A stretch of DNA of 35,981 nt. Source: a virus. Below are positions 3,681 to 10,090 of this stretch, piece by piece. The stretch's first letter is position 1, and each line of letters starts with the position of its first letter. The DNA is taken from positions 1 through 35,981 of IMG/VR virus record IMGVR_UViG_3300044825_001732, one strand, 5' to 3'. Both the position numbers and the translations under genes were made by a program. The notes under the pieces are model-generated. The model did not search any database. It was given only the letters and a program-made list of their open reading frames with translations, and was not told the DNA's origin.

Positions 3681-4400
3681 ATGCCATTACCAAAGATTTC
3701 TGCGCCAACTTATCATCTAACTTTACCATCAACTGGAAAAGAAATAAAATATAGACCATTTTTAGTCCGAGAAGAAAAGCTACTTGTCTTGGCACTAGAA
3801 AGCGAAGATTCAAGACAAATCACCGAAGCAATCAAAACTGTACTAAAGAATTGCATCGAAACAAGAGGAATCAAAGTAGAAACTCTTCCGACATTTGATA
3901 TCGAATATCTATTCCTTAACATTCGTGGAAAATCAGTTGGAGAAGACATTGAAGTTAATGTGATTTGTCCAGATGACGAAGAAACTACAGTTCCAGTAAA
4001 AATCAACATTGATGAAATCGAAGTCCAGAAATTTGATGGGCACGATAAAAAAATTAAACTTGATGATAAGATATATCTGGAGATGAAATATCCATCATTG
4101 GATCAATTTATTAAAAATAATTTTGATCTCAATTCTGCTGATGATATGGAGCAGGCATTTGATTTAATTGGGTCTTGTATTGATAAAATTTATACCGAAG
4201 ATGAAGTATGGTCAACTTCTGATGTGACAAAAAAAGAATTACAAGAATTCCTAGATCAAATGAATTCTTCTCAGTTTAAATTAATTGAGAAATTTTTTGA
4301 AACCATGCCAAAACTATCTCATACAATTAAAATCAAAAATCCAAAAACAAAGGTCGAAAGTGAAGTAACAATTGAGGGATTAACATCTTTTTTCGTATAA
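3681..4400 (+). CDS. 26: Baseplate hub protein gp26 (tail assembly chaperone-like)
   Basis: The 239-aa product starts MPLPKISAPTYHLTLPSTGK and continues with KYRPFLVREEKLLVLA and KNCIETRGIKVETLPTFDIE, the typical start of the T4-like gp26 family. The middle has a VNVICPDDEET strand pair, and the C-terminus is helical and acidic. In T4, gp26 is needed for hub assembly. The gene ends SFFV-stop, and the last sense codons lie on a T TTT TTC heptamer in the phase needed for -1 slippage (see 4388-4394). Slippage would fuse gp26 to the 52-aa frame that follows and give about 296 residues. That recalls the G/GT chaperone pair of lambdoid phages and suggests a chaperone role for gp26. Confidence 0.85.
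   Translation: MPLPKISAPTYHLTLPSTGKEIKYRPFLVREEKLLVLALESEDSRQITEAIKTVLKNCIETRGIKVETLPTFDIEYLFLNIRGKSVGEDIEVNVICPDDEETTVPVKINIDEIEVQKFDGHDKKIKLDDKIYLEMKYPSLDQFIKNNFDLNSADDMEQAFDLIGSCIDKIYTEDEVWSTSDVTKKELQEFLDQMNSSQFKLIEKFFETMPKLSHTIKIKNPKTKVESEVTIEGLTSFFV
4388..4394 (+). other. Candidate programmed -1 ribosomal frameshift site (T TTT TTC)
   Basis: The heptamer TTTTTTC sits in exact X XXY YYZ phase in gp26: TTT is codon 4389-4391 and TTC is codon 4392-4394. Two codons later comes the gp26 stop (4398-4400). In the -1 frame, reading continues CGT ATA AGT CTT TCT CAT straight into ATG at 4412 without a stop. A weak stem (4405-4409 with 4421-4425) lies 10 nt downstream. No ribosome site precedes the 4412 ATG. 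Confidence 0.6.
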
Positions 4401-4411
4401 GTCTTTCTCAT

Positions 4412-4570
4412 ATGGATCTGGAGAATTATTATCAGCTCAATTTCTCCTTGATGCAATATCATAAATATTCTTTGACTGAGATTGAAGCGTGGATCCCTTG
4501 GGAGAGAGATGTTTATGTAACTTTATTGAAGAATCATTTAGAAGAAGAAAAACTAAAACAGCAACAATAA
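4412..4570 (+). CDS. gp51-like small protein, probably the frameshift extension of gp26
   Basis: The frame encodes 52 residues from ATG 4412: MDLENYYQLNFSLMQYHKYS, then an LTEIEAWIPWERDVY segment and a K/E-rich helix ending in KQQQ. The W-I-P-W-E-R-D-x-Y-V-x-L-L pattern is the conserved core of a small family next to gp26 in many T4-like phages, sometimes labelled gp51 (baseplate hub assembly catalyst), although T4 gp51 itself is much longer. There is no purine-rich ribosome site before 4412. The frame is open upstream through RISLSH to the gp26 slippery heptamer, so I infer that it is made mainly as the tail of a gp26 fusion. The stop lies one base before the next gene. Confidence 0.65.
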   Translation: MDLENYYQLNFSLMQYHKYSLTEIEAWIPWERDVYVTLLKNHLEEEKLKQQQ

Positions 4571-4571
4571 A

Positions 4572-7052
4572 ATGCAAATTGGCATACCGTCAGGATTACC
4601 AGTAAAATGGTTCACATTTAATCAGGTTAGCGAAAAAACCTGGATTATACTGAAGGCGAAACTTACTGGCAAAAAGCAACCTGACGGTAAATCATATTAT
4701 TCTGAAGTCAGATTAAGTGATAAAGAAGCTGATACAATTATCAGAAACATAAAAAAAGATTCTCGTGGATTCCCACTGTTTGAAGAAGAAAAATCAAAAA
4801 AATTCGAAGAAGAAAATAAAAAGTATCAAGAATGGCTGGTCGAGCAATATCTTAAGAATGAACCAGATATTCCTAGCCTAGAAGATTCTATTAAAAATAA
4901 AAGAGAAGAGCCAACAACGCCCACTAGTGAACCAATATACGAAGGCACTCGTGGCGGCGATTTAGTAGATGAGGAAATTGATCCAGACTTACTAAAACTT
5001 ATTGGAATGGATGATGTCTCCGAAGGAGACTACGAAGATTATAGGGATCTGATTTCACAAAGCCTGTTAGAAGGATCTTGGTCAAATGGAAAAAAGATAC
5101 CGAAAAAACATCTTAAAATCTTACAAAAAGAATTGTATCGCGTAAAAGATAAAGTAGGAAAATTTAAACTAAAAAAATCTGGAAAAATTAATGCTACAAA
5201 TGTCAGGGCAGTAACATCAGCACCAAGAGCAAGAGTACAGCCAGAAAGCCTTGTAACTGAACAACCAAAACCAGAGCAACAAAAATCCGACGATTTACTA
5301 AAGCATGTAGTATCAATCAACAGATCAGTATCAAAAATACTCGAAATACTAACGGAAAGAAGTAAGTTAGATAAAAAACGAGAAGATTCCGAAAGAAAAC
5401 AAGCTGAAGTCTTAAGAAGACAAAAGAGAGAAGAGTCACTAGAAACTGGAATTGGTAAAGTTGCATCTGCTGCTGCTGGTCTTCTTGCTCCAGTTCAGGG
5501 GATTCTCGACAAGATCATAAGATTTATTGTCTTTACTTTACTTGGAAAGGCATTTGTAAACTTTGTGAAATGGCTGAATAATCCACAGAATAAAGAACGA
5601 GTTGAGACCCTCAAAAAGTTCTTGAAGGATTGGTGGCCAGCATTGATGGGTGCCATCGTCTTATTTACCACTCCATTTGGTAAATTTGTTCGTGCATTTA
5701 TTGGAATGGTAGCAAAACTTACATTAAGACTATCAAAGTTTGCTATTCCTGGATTAATGAAATTAATTGCAAAGTATCCTAAAACAGCGATAGCAATTGG
5801 TGCTGCTGGTGCTGCGGCTGGTGTTGGGATGTATATGCAATCTAGAACACAAAAGCAAGATCAAGAATTGCAAAGTGCAGATCCAAATTACGGAAAATCA
5901 CCAAGTCCACAGAAGAGTATGCTTGACACTACATCTTCTAGAGGTATTCCAGCATTTAAAGGTGGAGGATTAATTCCACTTGCTAGGGCATTTACGGGAG
6001 GCGGGCAGCAAACTTATCTGCAGCCATTTGAAGGTGGCTTTGTGGATGATAGTACAGGACTCACTGTAACCGGAGCTGGAGCCGATACACAGGCAACAGT
6101 GCTACAGCCAGGTGAAGTGGTGTTCAGCAAGAAAGCAGTGGACTACTGGGGCGCAGATAGGCTTCTGGCGATGAATAAGATGGGGGGAGGAACCAACATT
6201 CCCAAATTCGTCAATAATGTTCAGATGGCACAAGGTGGTGGTATGATCGGTGGAATGATGCGAGGTATTGGAAGATTATTTGGTTCCAAAAATCCAACTC
6301 CACAAACAACTATTAAGCCATCATGGCATGGCCCAGCACCAAATTATGAGTATAAATCTAGAGAAGTTCAGGCATTCTTGAGATCACTTAAAGTTGCGGA
6401 AGGAACTATAAAATCTAAAAATTCTTATGATACCATTTATGGTGGGGCGGAAGTTCCAATTCGTCAAATGACAGTGAAAGAATTAATTAATATGCAGATG
6501 TCTGATATGCTACCAAAAAGACTTGGTGGAGGAAGAGCACCTTGGCCAAGTGGTAGATCTAGAGCATCTGGTGCATACCAATTTATGCCTAATACTTTAA
6601 AACAGTTAATGGTGATGAATGTATTAAAGCCATCCGATAAAATGACACCAGAAACTCAGGACCGTGCTGCCTGGGAATTAGCAAAAAGAAGAGGAGTTAC
6701 TTTATCTCAACTGAAAACACAAGGTCTTAGTCGAGGAATTTTAAATTCAGTTGCGGGAGAATGGAGTTCATTACCAAACTTAGAAGGTAAGAGTTACTAC
6801 AATCAACCAGTAAAAAAACCTGAATTACTACAACAAGTTTATAAAGAAAGTTTACAACTTGCACCACAAGCAAAAATGCAACTACCAGGACCCCCAACAG
6901 CAAATCAAAAAATATCATTTGTTGATTTACCGCCAATTACACAACAAGCAAATCAACAAGTTGCTTCTTCTGGCGGCACAAAAATTCCACAATTTGTACC
7001 ACCAGACTCTACTCAAGCTTCAATTAATGCTTCTATCTATGGTCTAGGCTGA
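4572..7052 (+). CDS. Tape-measure-like tail protein with lambda R-type (GH104-like) transglycosylase domain, 826 aa
   Basis: Residues 1-290 are charged and partly coiled coil (SKLDKKREDSERKQAEVLRR). Hydrophobic segments follow at about 293-332 (IIRFIVFTLLGKAFVNFV), 356-370 and 406-423 (AIAIGAAGAAAGVGMYM), as in tape-measure proteins. Residues about 500-550 hold the LQPGEVVFSKKAVDYWGADR signature common near tape-measure C-termini. Residues about 597-760 follow the layout of lambda endolysin R: VAEGT with Glu610 as the likely catalytic acid, SYDTIYGG, SGAYQFMPNTL, QDRAAWELAKRRG and EWSSLPN. I infer a protein stored in the tube that cuts peptidoglycan and contacts the inner membrane during entry. 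It starts one base after the gp51-like stop and overlaps the next gene in TGATG. Confidence 0.72.
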   Translation: MQIGIPSGLPVKWFTFNQVSEKTWIILKAKLTGKKQPDGKSYYSEVRLSDKEADTIIRNIKKDSRGFPLFEEEKSKKFEEENKKYQEWLVEQYLKNEPDIPSLEDSIKNKREEPTTPTSEPIYEGTRGGDLVDEEIDPDLLKLIGMDDVSEGDYEDYRDLISQSLLEGSWSNGKKIPKKHLKILQKELYRVKDKVGKFKLKKSGKINATNVRAVTSAPRARVQPESLVTEQPKPEQQKSDDLLKHVVSINRSVSKILEILTERSKLDKKREDSERKQAEVLRRQKREESLETGIGKVASAAAGLLAPVQGILDKIIRFIVFTLLGKAFVNFVKWLNNPQNKERVETLKKFLKDWWPALMGAIVLFTTPFGKFVRAFIGMVAKLTLRLSKFAIPGLMKLIAKYPKTAIAIGAAGAAAGVGMYMQSRTQKQDQELQSADPNYGKSPSPQKSMLDTTSSRGIPAFKGGGLIPLARAFTGGGQQTYLQPFEGGFVDDSTGLTVTGAGADTQATVLQPGEVVFSKKAVDYWGADRLLAMNKMGGGTNIPKFVNNVQMAQGGGMIGGMMRGIGRLFGSKNPTPQTTIKPSWHGPAPNYEYKSREVQAFLRSLKVAEGTIKSKNSYDTIYGGAEVPIRQMTVKELINMQMSDMLPKRLGGGRAPWPSGRSRASGAYQFMPNTLKQLMVMNVLKPSDKMTPETQDRAAWELAKRRGVTLSQLKTQGLSRGILNSVAGEWSSLPNLEGKSYYNQPVKKPELLQQVYKESLQLAPQAKMQLPGPPTANQKISFVDLPPITQQANQQVASSGGTKIPQFVPPDSTQASINASIYGLG

Positions 7053-10000
7053 TGGCAAAAATAGACACAAATAAATTTATACCACAAAATAGAACCGAAA
7101 ATAGAGGCTTATCTTCTCAGAGAGTTTCTGTTTCTTCTGGTGTTTCTTCTGGATCAACACCAAATATTAATCCTTCCGATGTCAAACCAGAAGAAAATGA
7201 AACCCAACCAAAGAAAACTTTATTGTCAGAAGTCATAGAGATTAGAAGAAATCTTCTATTGATTCTAAAGCTTGTTAAAGGTAATAATTCATTATTAAAA
7301 AAATCAGAAGAAAGACAAAGAAAAGAACAAGAGCAACAAAAATTTCAAGAGAAAGAACTGAAATCAGAAGAAAAGAAAAACAAACTGATTCCAGATTTTA
7401 AACCAACAGAATTTCCCAAGATGGGATTTTTGGATAGAATCAAACAGTTCCTTTTCTACACTGTACTTGGTGCTGCATTTACAAAATTTGGAAAGCACAT
7501 TCCACAAGTATTGGGATTACTTAAAAATTTAGGTCCAGCATTTACAACCTTTGAGAATATTACTGGAAATATTTTAAATGGTTTTGTGGATTTTGTTGGA
7601 TTTGGATACAAGGCATACGATAAAGTTAAGGAAATTATTGTAGGTATCAGTGGAGATGATACCGAAAAGAGATTACAAGAATTCGACAAACAATTTAATA
7701 CCTTTGCAAATCTAGCTATTATTGCTGGAATGACTGCTGCTGGTAGTGCAGATTTTAGTGGTGGGGGCGGAAAAAAAGAAAGACTAGGAGTTGACAAACA
7801 AACTGGACAGAGAGTCAGTAAAAGAGCACAGGCAAGATATCTGAATCAATATGGACAAGATGCTTATATTAAAAAGTTTGGAAAAAGAAGTTTTACTGGA
7901 TTAACCGGAAAAGCTCCTAGTAGATTTGCCGGAAGACTTGCTGGTAAGGCACTTGGAAAAGTTCCAATTATTGGTGGTCTTGTTGATTTTATTATCAGTA
8001 CAGTTATATTCAAAGAGAAACCAGGAAGAGCAGCAGCAAAGGCAGTTGGTGCTACAATTGGTTCTGCTCTAGGAACATTTGTTCCAGTTCCATTTGCTGG
8101 AACTATTCTTGGTGGTATTCTTGGTGATATTGTTGGTGGAGCACTTTATGATTCTTTGGTTGGTGGCGATAAACTTAAGGCAAAAGCTCAAGGTGGCCAA
8201 GCTACCAGAGGTGGAAAAAGAGTTTCTGCTCCAATCAAAAGAACCATTAAGCGAACAAGACCCAAACCAACAAAAATTAAACCACAAAAAACAATACCAG
8301 GAAAAGATGTCGGTGGAAGAGAAGAGATCAAAAAATTATTCACATCTCCTACGAATCCTAGACAAAAGAATCCACTTGGGACATTAGAAAATGCTTCCAA
8401 AAATTATAAAGAACGAGTTCCGTTGATCGGTGGCATTATGGGTGCTGCTATAGATTCGACAATGGGACAAAGACCAGATCCAACTACATTCAAAAGAATT
8501 GGAACTGGATTCGGACATTTGATTCAGAATGCAATCGATGCAGAAACGAATGGAACAATTGCAGGTATTCAAAATCAAATAGTTGGACTTGCTGCTGGTG
8601 GTATGGTACCAAGAACACTGTCAACCAATGAAAATATTGGGATGAAGATTGGTGAAAGTATTGGTAAAGCTCTTGAGGCTATGGTTAATAGTCAGGTCAA
8701 TCAAACACTACAATCAATTCGTCAGCAATTTACCAAAGAAGATTATATGGCCCCTGGTGGTGGGGCACCTGATGGTGGTGGGGGCGGAGCTGGTGGAGGA
8801 ATGTTACCCGGAGATGCGCCGCCAGAAGTAAAAGCTGCATTAGAAGCCATTGCCGGAGCTGAAGGTGGGTGGGATTCTGTCAATCCTGGTAAGGTAGTTA
8901 CTGGTCTTAGAAATATGACCATTGCTCAAGCGAGAGAAGTTGGAATGAATCAAAGAGCAATTGCTGGAAGTGGCGCATTAGGGAAGTTTCAGCAATTGCC
9001 CGTATACAATGGAGTTAATGTATTAAAACAAAGAGCTGAAGCTGCTGGACTCAATTATGAAAGAGATAAATTTAATGAAGAAAATCAAACAAAAATTGCG
9101 AGAGCTTATATAGCCGGAATTTATCCTGGAGGTGAAGCGCAGTTAATACAAGATGCAAGAAAAGATCCAATGATCTTAGCAAACAAATTAAAAGGAGTTT
9201 ATCCATCATTGCCAGGTGGCAGTCAACCAAATGTCCATACTTCAGGTTACTTGAGTAGATATCAACAATCACTAGAGAAATATAGAGTAACATTATCTCA
9301 CGGAAGAATACCAAAAGCTGATTATATAAAAGGAGTTGTTGATGAATCCGGAGAACCTGGATTTGATGTTACTTGGAAAGGAAATAATAATATTGCAATT
9401 CTCCCAGGAAAAGTGAAAGAAGTGGGGAAACTATATGGATCTGGATATGGAAATGTTGTAGTAGTTGAATCTATTGATCCAGTAAATGGGAAAAAAGTAG
9501 ATGTTTTATATTCTCACTTCCCTGATGGTGGAATATCAGTAGCCCCAGGACAACAAGTAAATACTGGCCAAGTTTTAGGTAGGATGGGAAAACCTGGGGA
9601 ACCTGGAATTGGAAATATAACAGGTCAACATGCTAGTATAGATTTTTATGAACCTAATAAAAATGTAAAATATTCAAGATGGCAAGGATTATCAAGAGAA
9701 ATTATTAATTCCGCAAAAACTGGAAGTAATCTTAGTAATCGGCCAACCCCAACTCCGAAACCAGATACTCGTCCATCATCGCCACCACCTGCTCAGGTTA
9801 GAACTAATCTAACTAGACCATCTTTGGATCTTAAAAGACATTCTGGATTAAAATTAAATCCGAAAACTGGACAATATGAAAAGGCATCACTAGCACCATC
9901 AACCTTACCAAACAGTGCTTCTGGATTAAACCAAGAAATTATTTATGGGGGAATCAAAGAAACTATAATAGCTAGGCAACTAATTTCCACACCGCAACTA

Positions 10001-10090
10001 ACTCCAGTTCCAACTGGTGGTGGTATAGTAAATAATATAGCAAGCACACAATCAGTTAATCAAACTCAAGCAACATTAGCCAACGCATAA
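7052..10090 (+). CDS. Second tape-measure-like tail protein with lysozyme-like and degenerate M23 domains, 1012 aa
   Basis: The layout repeats that of the upstream gene: coiled coil (about 55-115, LKKSEERQRKEQEQQ), then IKQFLFYTVLGAAFTKFGK (about 130-148), which aligns with IIRFIVFTLLGKAFVNFVK upstream. Further hydrophobic Gly/Ala stretches lie at about 305-320 and 330-370. After a Gly-rich hinge (about 565-590) comes a lysozyme-like domain (about 595-730) with AGAEGGWD (Glu604) and GSGALGKFQQLP. Residues about 755-885 look like a LytM/M23 domain: GEPGFD (D772), YSHF (H822) and GQHAS (H860). Two usual zinc ligands are replaced, giving E768 for His and S862 for His, so catalysis is doubtful. 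The C-terminus is Pro/Thr-rich. It overlaps gp27 by one base (TAATG). Confidence 0.7.
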   Translation: MAKIDTNKFIPQNRTENRGLSSQRVSVSSGVSSGSTPNINPSDVKPEENETQPKKTLLSEVIEIRRNLLLILKLVKGNNSLLKKSEERQRKEQEQQKFQEKELKSEEKKNKLIPDFKPTEFPKMGFLDRIKQFLFYTVLGAAFTKFGKHIPQVLGLLKNLGPAFTTFENITGNILNGFVDFVGFGYKAYDKVKEIIVGISGDDTEKRLQEFDKQFNTFANLAIIAGMTAAGSADFSGGGGKKERLGVDKQTGQRVSKRAQARYLNQYGQDAYIKKFGKRSFTGLTGKAPSRFAGRLAGKALGKVPIIGGLVDFIISTVIFKEKPGRAAAKAVGATIGSALGTFVPVPFAGTILGGILGDIVGGALYDSLVGGDKLKAKAQGGQATRGGKRVSAPIKRTIKRTRPKPTKIKPQKTIPGKDVGGREEIKKLFTSPTNPRQKNPLGTLENASKNYKERVPLIGGIMGAAIDSTMGQRPDPTTFKRIGTGFGHLIQNAIDAETNGTIAGIQNQIVGLAAGGMVPRTLSTNENIGMKIGESIGKALEAMVNSQVNQTLQSIRQQFTKEDYMAPGGGAPDGGGGGAGGGMLPGDAPPEVKAALEAIAGAEGGWDSVNPGKVVTGLRNMTIAQAREVGMNQRAIAGSGALGKFQQLPVYNGVNVLKQRAEAAGLNYERDKFNEENQTKIARAYIAGIYPGGEAQLIQDARKDPMILANKLKGVYPSLPGGSQPNVHTSGYLSRYQQSLEKYRVTLSHGRIPKADYIKGVVDESGEPGFDVTWKGNNNIAILPGKVKEVGKLYGSGYGNVVVVESIDPVNGKKVDVLYSHFPDGGISVAPGQQVNTGQVLGRMGKPGEPGIGNITGQHASIDFYEPNKNVKYSRWQGLSREIINSAKTGSNLSNRPTPTPKPDTRPSSPPPAQVRTNLTRPSLDLKRHSGLKLNPKTGQYEKASLAPSTLPNSASGLNQEIIYGGIKETIIARQLISTPQLTPVPTGGGIVNNIASTQSVNQTQATLANA

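Follow-up and report, generated by a model that had tools for sequence, protein, structure and literature searches.

A predicted programmed −1 frameshift site in the gp26/gp51 tail assembly chaperone locus of a cyanophage-like virus

Two frames between the tail tube gene and the putative tape-measure genes

The window analysed here, i.e. a complete virus record of 35,981 bases, contains two overlapping or adjacent frames, gp26 and a small gp51-like frame, between the tail tube gene (PF23849 match) and two large ORFs that, by inference, encode tape-measure proteins. This arrangement (tail tube–gp26–gp51–tape-measure-like ORFs; all window features given below are on the + strand) raises the question of whether gp26 and gp51 are two genes with separate starts or, as an earlier note on this DNA had proposed, a single chaperone locus in which a −1 frameshift fuses the second frame to the first. 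The gp26 frame (3681..4400) encodes a protein of 239 aa, which matches PF12322 (Pfam T4_baseplate) with an E-value of 8.9e-77 and positions 5-232 of phrog_150 with an E-value of 2e-83. Since it is 73% identical to gp26 of Synechococcus phage SynMITS9220M01 (Kyanoviridae), the virus can be regarded as cyanophage-like. The gp51-like frame is usually annotated as a separate gene starting from the ATG at 4412, 11 nt past the gp26 stop, and comprises 52 aa when counted from this codon.

The first of the two large ORFs (4572..7052) encodes an 826-aa protein that we consider, by its position, a putative client of the chaperone; it has one hydrophobic segment and matches phrog_90 (endolysin-like). The second (7052..10090) encodes a 1012-aa protein with an M23 peptidase domain. 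The tandem pair shows partial paralogy (BLASTP E 8e-10), and the two proteins differ in their cell-wall hydrolase-like domains. Searches of solved structures by sequence returned none for gp26 and none for the 826-aa protein.

The 3′ end of gp26 reads ACA TCT TTT TTC GTA TAA, so that the heptamer T_TTT_TTC at 4388..4394 is exactly in the X_XXY_YYZ phase, two codons before the stop (4398-4400), as the earlier note had read it. The −1 frame entered at 4394 encodes RISLSHMDLENYYQLNF...QQQ and remains open to the stop at 4568-4570, passing through the linker RISLSH (4394..4411), predicted to be translated only via frameshifting, into the protein that begins with MDLENYY. The −1 slip would add 58 residues to 238 residues of gp26, which gives a predicted fusion of 296 aa next to the unshifted product of 239 aa, the two sizes that had been anticipated. 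The added part (4394..4570), the candidate C-terminal domain of the long form (TAC-C), matches phrog_634 (E 5e-27) and positions 237-280 of phrog_150 (E 1.9e-4).

The heptamer in the window by itself is weak evidence, because a Ser-Phe-Phe sequence would be encoded with NNT TTT about 0.4 of the time, as estimated from pooled codon frequencies. In the window's ORFs of at least 100 aa we found 22 in-phase A6/T6 heptamers, among which the gp26 site is the only one that both lies within 30 nt of the stop of its ORF and opens at least 50 codons in the −1 frame.

Conservation of the heptamer and of the −1 frame

The earlier note had suggested that the heptamer, its phase and the open linker be compared among relatives. 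Six IMG/VR scans and 24 annotated phage regions yielded 363 sequences with a gp26 match, the window included, and 358 of these include the gp26 stop. An in-phase T_TTT_TTN no more than 31 nt from the stop was found at 353 of the 358 loci, whereas in the remainder of gp26 the heptamer occurs at 0.2 per gene. Five loci are exceptions: T2, RB49, VP-1, PH4 and Vibrio phage K444. The first two have no heptamer, and they encode gp26 and gp51 as separate genes on opposite strands. The other three phages have a gp26 homologue of the Ackermannviridae type, and VP-1 and PH4 are classified in that family.

The gp26 homologues of VP-1, PH4 and Vibrio phage K444 (L097:2160-2260, L101:2160-2260 and L102:2180-2280, respectively) end with NTT TTY NNN TAATG, which lacks a full heptamer, and their −1 frame still enters a similar small C-domain; in this type, either stop-start reinitiation or slippage in the A site, as at the Vandenendeviridae motif GTTTTT, may be at work. 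In Pseudoalteromonas phage vB_Psh_XG4 (L096:2220-2290), which is outside the list of five exceptions, the frame relation at the end of the gp26 homologue, as judged from translations only, fits the same −1 shift, possibly at T_TTT_TTA.

Constraint at synonymous positions was analysed in 153 representatives that are less than 80% identical. The codon preceding the first Phe ends in T in all 153, although it encodes Ser, Asp, Asn and other residues (log10 P of about −31 under pooled codon usage), and the first Phe codon is TTT in all 153 (log10 P of about −22 under the same model); these third-base biases rank among the strongest synonymous biases of gp26. The relatives share ancestry, so the P values overstate the independence of the observations, but inheritance without selection is implausible, because divergence in the set reaches down to about 30% identity. 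Judged from these alignments, the conservation of the heptamer is not due to chance.

The −1 frame is conserved as well. The −1 ORF spans 55-73 codons in the 346 cases where it is complete, and among the 121 representatives with the usual geometry none has a −1 stop within 20 codons, whereas stops occur in the 0 frame past its own stop in 112 and in the +1 frame in 113. The residues between the gp26 stop and the annotated start of gp51 are kept in the −1 frame as R-I/L-A/G-L-S-H, and most linker codons vary most at their third position. The heptamer (at 353 of 358 loci) and the open linker are thus kept among the relatives, and these two tests named in the earlier note did not refute the frameshift.

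Start codons of gp51 and alternative readings of the junction

Counting against the frameshift, the window retains ATG 4412, a possible source of some free gp51 domain. The earlier note had pointed out that this codon has no ribosome site. We indeed found no Shine-Dalgarno (SD) sequence at 4412; as an argument against initiation, however, the observation had to be rejected, because most genes in the window lack such a sequence, including most of those in the tail module (e.g. the starts at 2800, 3681, 4572 and 10090).

The alternative that survives best is compatible with our preferred explanation and supposes that both routes operate: frameshifting would produce the long form while, in the close cyanophage clade, ATG 4412 would supply extra TAC-C as a free domain. 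We regard it as rather unlikely: nearly all close relatives have an ATG at the corresponding position, but no SD sequence accompanies the codon at 4412, and most lineages have Asp, Glu, Asn, Ile or another residue in place of the Met, so that the free domain cannot be needed in general. In one close relative of the window (L038:3700-3800) the ATG of gp51 has been lost entirely (RLALIYIDLESY), so the start is dispensable within the clade.

It is very improbable that the heptamer is incidental and that gp51 is a separate gene, read from ATG 4412 through coupling to gp26 translation or through reinitiation past the gp26 stop. The short distance from the stop, the presence of the ATG in many close relatives, the general scarcity of SD sequences in the window and the public records, which annotate gp51 as a gene of its own, would all agree with this reading. 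However, 131 of the 309 distinct junctions found among the relatives lack ATG, GTG and TTG throughout the initial 12 codons of the gp51 frame and nonetheless encode the same residues; moreover, the linker is conserved in the −1 frame and the heptamer is fixed at synonymous sites. With start codons absent from so many junctions and the linker conserved, independent initiation cannot be how gp51 is generally made, and the earlier note's condition of a clear independent ribosome site and start for the small frame did not refute its proposal. The gp51 genes annotated in P-HM2 (L098:2289-2381; 93 bases, 31 aa, starting 90 bases past gp26) and in Mosig (L087:3262-3396; 135 bases, 45 aa) start too late, because the true N-terminus has no ATG.

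That one gene was split by a sequencing or assembly error in the run of six T's can be dismissed, since hundreds of independent contigs, and complete isolate genomes as well, show the same frame relation.

The preferred reading, which the sequence comparisons strongly support, is therefore that the heptamer is a site of programmed −1 frameshifting within a locus for a tail assembly chaperone.

Candidate stimulatory elements

In the dnaX gene of E. coli, the frameshift cassette consists of an SD-like element about 10 nt upstream, the slippery heptamer and a downstream hairpin. The dnaX heptamer is A6G, and the dnaX shift shortens the product, whereas the shift in the window would extend it. The SD-like element of the dnaX type, placed 10-14 nt upstream, is matched in the window by GAGGG (within ttGAGGGa, 4372..4378), about 11 nt 5′ of the heptamer, and this element is a probable upstream stimulator. 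In the 153 representatives, pairing with the anti-SD sequence is strongest some 11-16 nt 5′ of the heptamer, where its mean is −5.9 kcal/mol versus −4.7 kcal/mol in synonymous codon resamplings (z −14.7, reached at offset −16). An excess of third-base G is found at gp26 codons 231-233. Read across the relatives, these patterns show that an SD-like element is under selection.

The downstream hairpin or pseudoknot of the dnaX type, expected at 5-9 nt, has a clear counterpart in many relatives and not in the window. When the relatives were compared with dinucleotide shuffles, folding deviated most right after the heptamer (mean z −2.3 versus 0 to −0.6 elsewhere), and the downstream folding was also stronger than that of codon-resampled sequences (mean z −1.6). 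A stem of at least 6 pairs within 40 nt was present in 67 of 152 representatives, most commonly starting 6 nt past the heptamer; since comparable stems occurred in 21 to 51 of 152 in control stretches, the frequency of stems alone indicates only a modest enrichment. Compensatory changes were found in one set of lineages (GCCCTC/GAGGGC, GGGCTCTC/GAGAGCCT and GCACTATC/GATAGTTT). A single downstream structure common to all relatives was rejected, as the pair probabilities at fixed positions are low and the stem is lineage-specific. The window lacks the clean hairpin that many relatives have about 6 nt downstream, which counts against the preferred reading. A weak, non-canonical stem GGAGAA/TTCTCC (approximately 4419..4453) lies 26 nt downstream of the heptamer and is a possible stimulator with unusual spacing; the folding z of the window is −3.2 for a 60-nt stretch only, and about 0 for shorter stretches.

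Proposed short and long forms of a tail assembly chaperone

The gp26 and gp51 proteins of T4 and T2 are homologous to the window's proteins, and their comparison is informative about the fusion. T2 gp51 is a single polypeptide of 249 aa that matches positions 13 to 280 of phrog_150, whereas the match of T2 gp26 ends at 235; the two ORFs of the window split the same family into 5-232 (gp26) and 237-280 (the −1 peptide). In profile comparisons, residues 13-186 of T2 gp51 match the gp26 profile (E 2e-6) and residues 207-244 match the gp51-like profile (E 3.1e-5), while T2 gp26 matches the gp26 profile (E 9.6e-17) and no gp51-like part was detected in it. Because T2 gp51 matches both parts and T2 gp26 only the first, the T4-type gp51 can be seen as a natural “long form” and gp26 as the “short form”, and the cyanophage-like locus would behave as one that encodes both from one start. 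Unlike in the window, gp51 of T2 and RB49 has an N-terminal domain of its own.

AlphaFold gave a confident model of gp26 (pLDDT 93) and a helical one of the C-domain (pLDDT 88). Foldseek searches with the gp26 model found gp26 relatives among viral models, and no significant match among solved structures, a further point against the chaperone reading; a likeness to the HK97 tail assembly chaperone (2ob9, E 1.1, probability 0.28) is a lead only. No match to the Pfam tail-chaperone families was found for the C-domain among 60 members.

We are highly confident that the two overlapping frames of the locus form a single tail assembly chaperone system, with the long form arising by a −1 slip at the heptamer. 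From the sequences compared here we infer slippage, its efficiency and the chaperone function as follows. Ribosomes that terminate at 4398, the majority, would yield the 239-aa short form (TAC-N). The others, aided by the upstream SD-like sequence, would slip back by one base at U_UUU_UUC, with tRNA-Phe re-pairing in both the P and the A site; these ribosomes would bypass the gp26 stop and append the 58-aa gp51-like domain, producing the 296-aa long form (TAC-NC). By analogy with gpG/gpGT of phage lambda, a fixed ratio of short to long form may chaperone the tape-measure-like proteins encoded just downstream.

In lambda, a short form and a −1 frameshifted long form are encoded just before the tape-measure gene. 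The layout in the window is the same, with a different slippery sequence and a C-terminal extension of just about 58 aa, and the likeness to the lambda-type pair put forward in the earlier note is borne out by T2 gp51, in which the gp26-like and gp51-like parts naturally form a single polypeptide. In T4-like phages, Vladimirov et al. 2022 are said to have reported that frameshifting is kept in several groups and that T4 uses genes 26 and 51. According to the 2022 work as cited in PMC12846349, the TAC-N genes of T4-like phages carry polyT slippery sequences, and according to the same work as cited in PRFect, some T4-like phages encode the short and long forms as separate genes. The central idea of a gp26/gp51 frameshift in these phages is therefore already published (Vladimirov et al. 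2022, as cited by these sources), so that the recasting of gp26 and gp51 as one chaperone system, proposed in the earlier note, is supported by our comparison and is not new. The published scheme, as far as it is given there, assigns the same roles, with gp26 being TAC-N and the gp51-type C domain its extension; the window represents another member, from an uncultivated virus. Our analysis agrees with the published view from separate data and adds a new member, sample size, the loss of start codons, and probable SD-like and hairpin signals. In the tail chaperones of Vandenendeviridae and Andersonviridae, the TAC-N gene, located before the tape measure, likewise ends with a −1 frameshift at a polyT motif, GTTTTT (PMC12846349), whereas the window has the full T_TTT_TTC heptamer.

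Taken more broadly, a single ancient cassette of three parts at gp26/gp51, consisting of an SD-like element, T_TTT_TTN and a short hairpin, is likely to be common to most T4-like phages outside the T4 clade, and the T4 clade has two separate genes in its place. Public annotations of gp51 in the phages with the cassette would therefore be wrong at the N-terminus. The annotations “baseplate hub subunit” (gp26) and “hub assembly catalyst” (gp51) would be corrected in hundreds of marine phage genomes, and a virus group that is among the most abundant in the sea would gain a testable pair of short and long tail-assembly chaperones. The cassette, strongly conserved as it is, may also serve for studying the tuning of viral frameshift efficiency in marine hosts, cyanobacteria among them.
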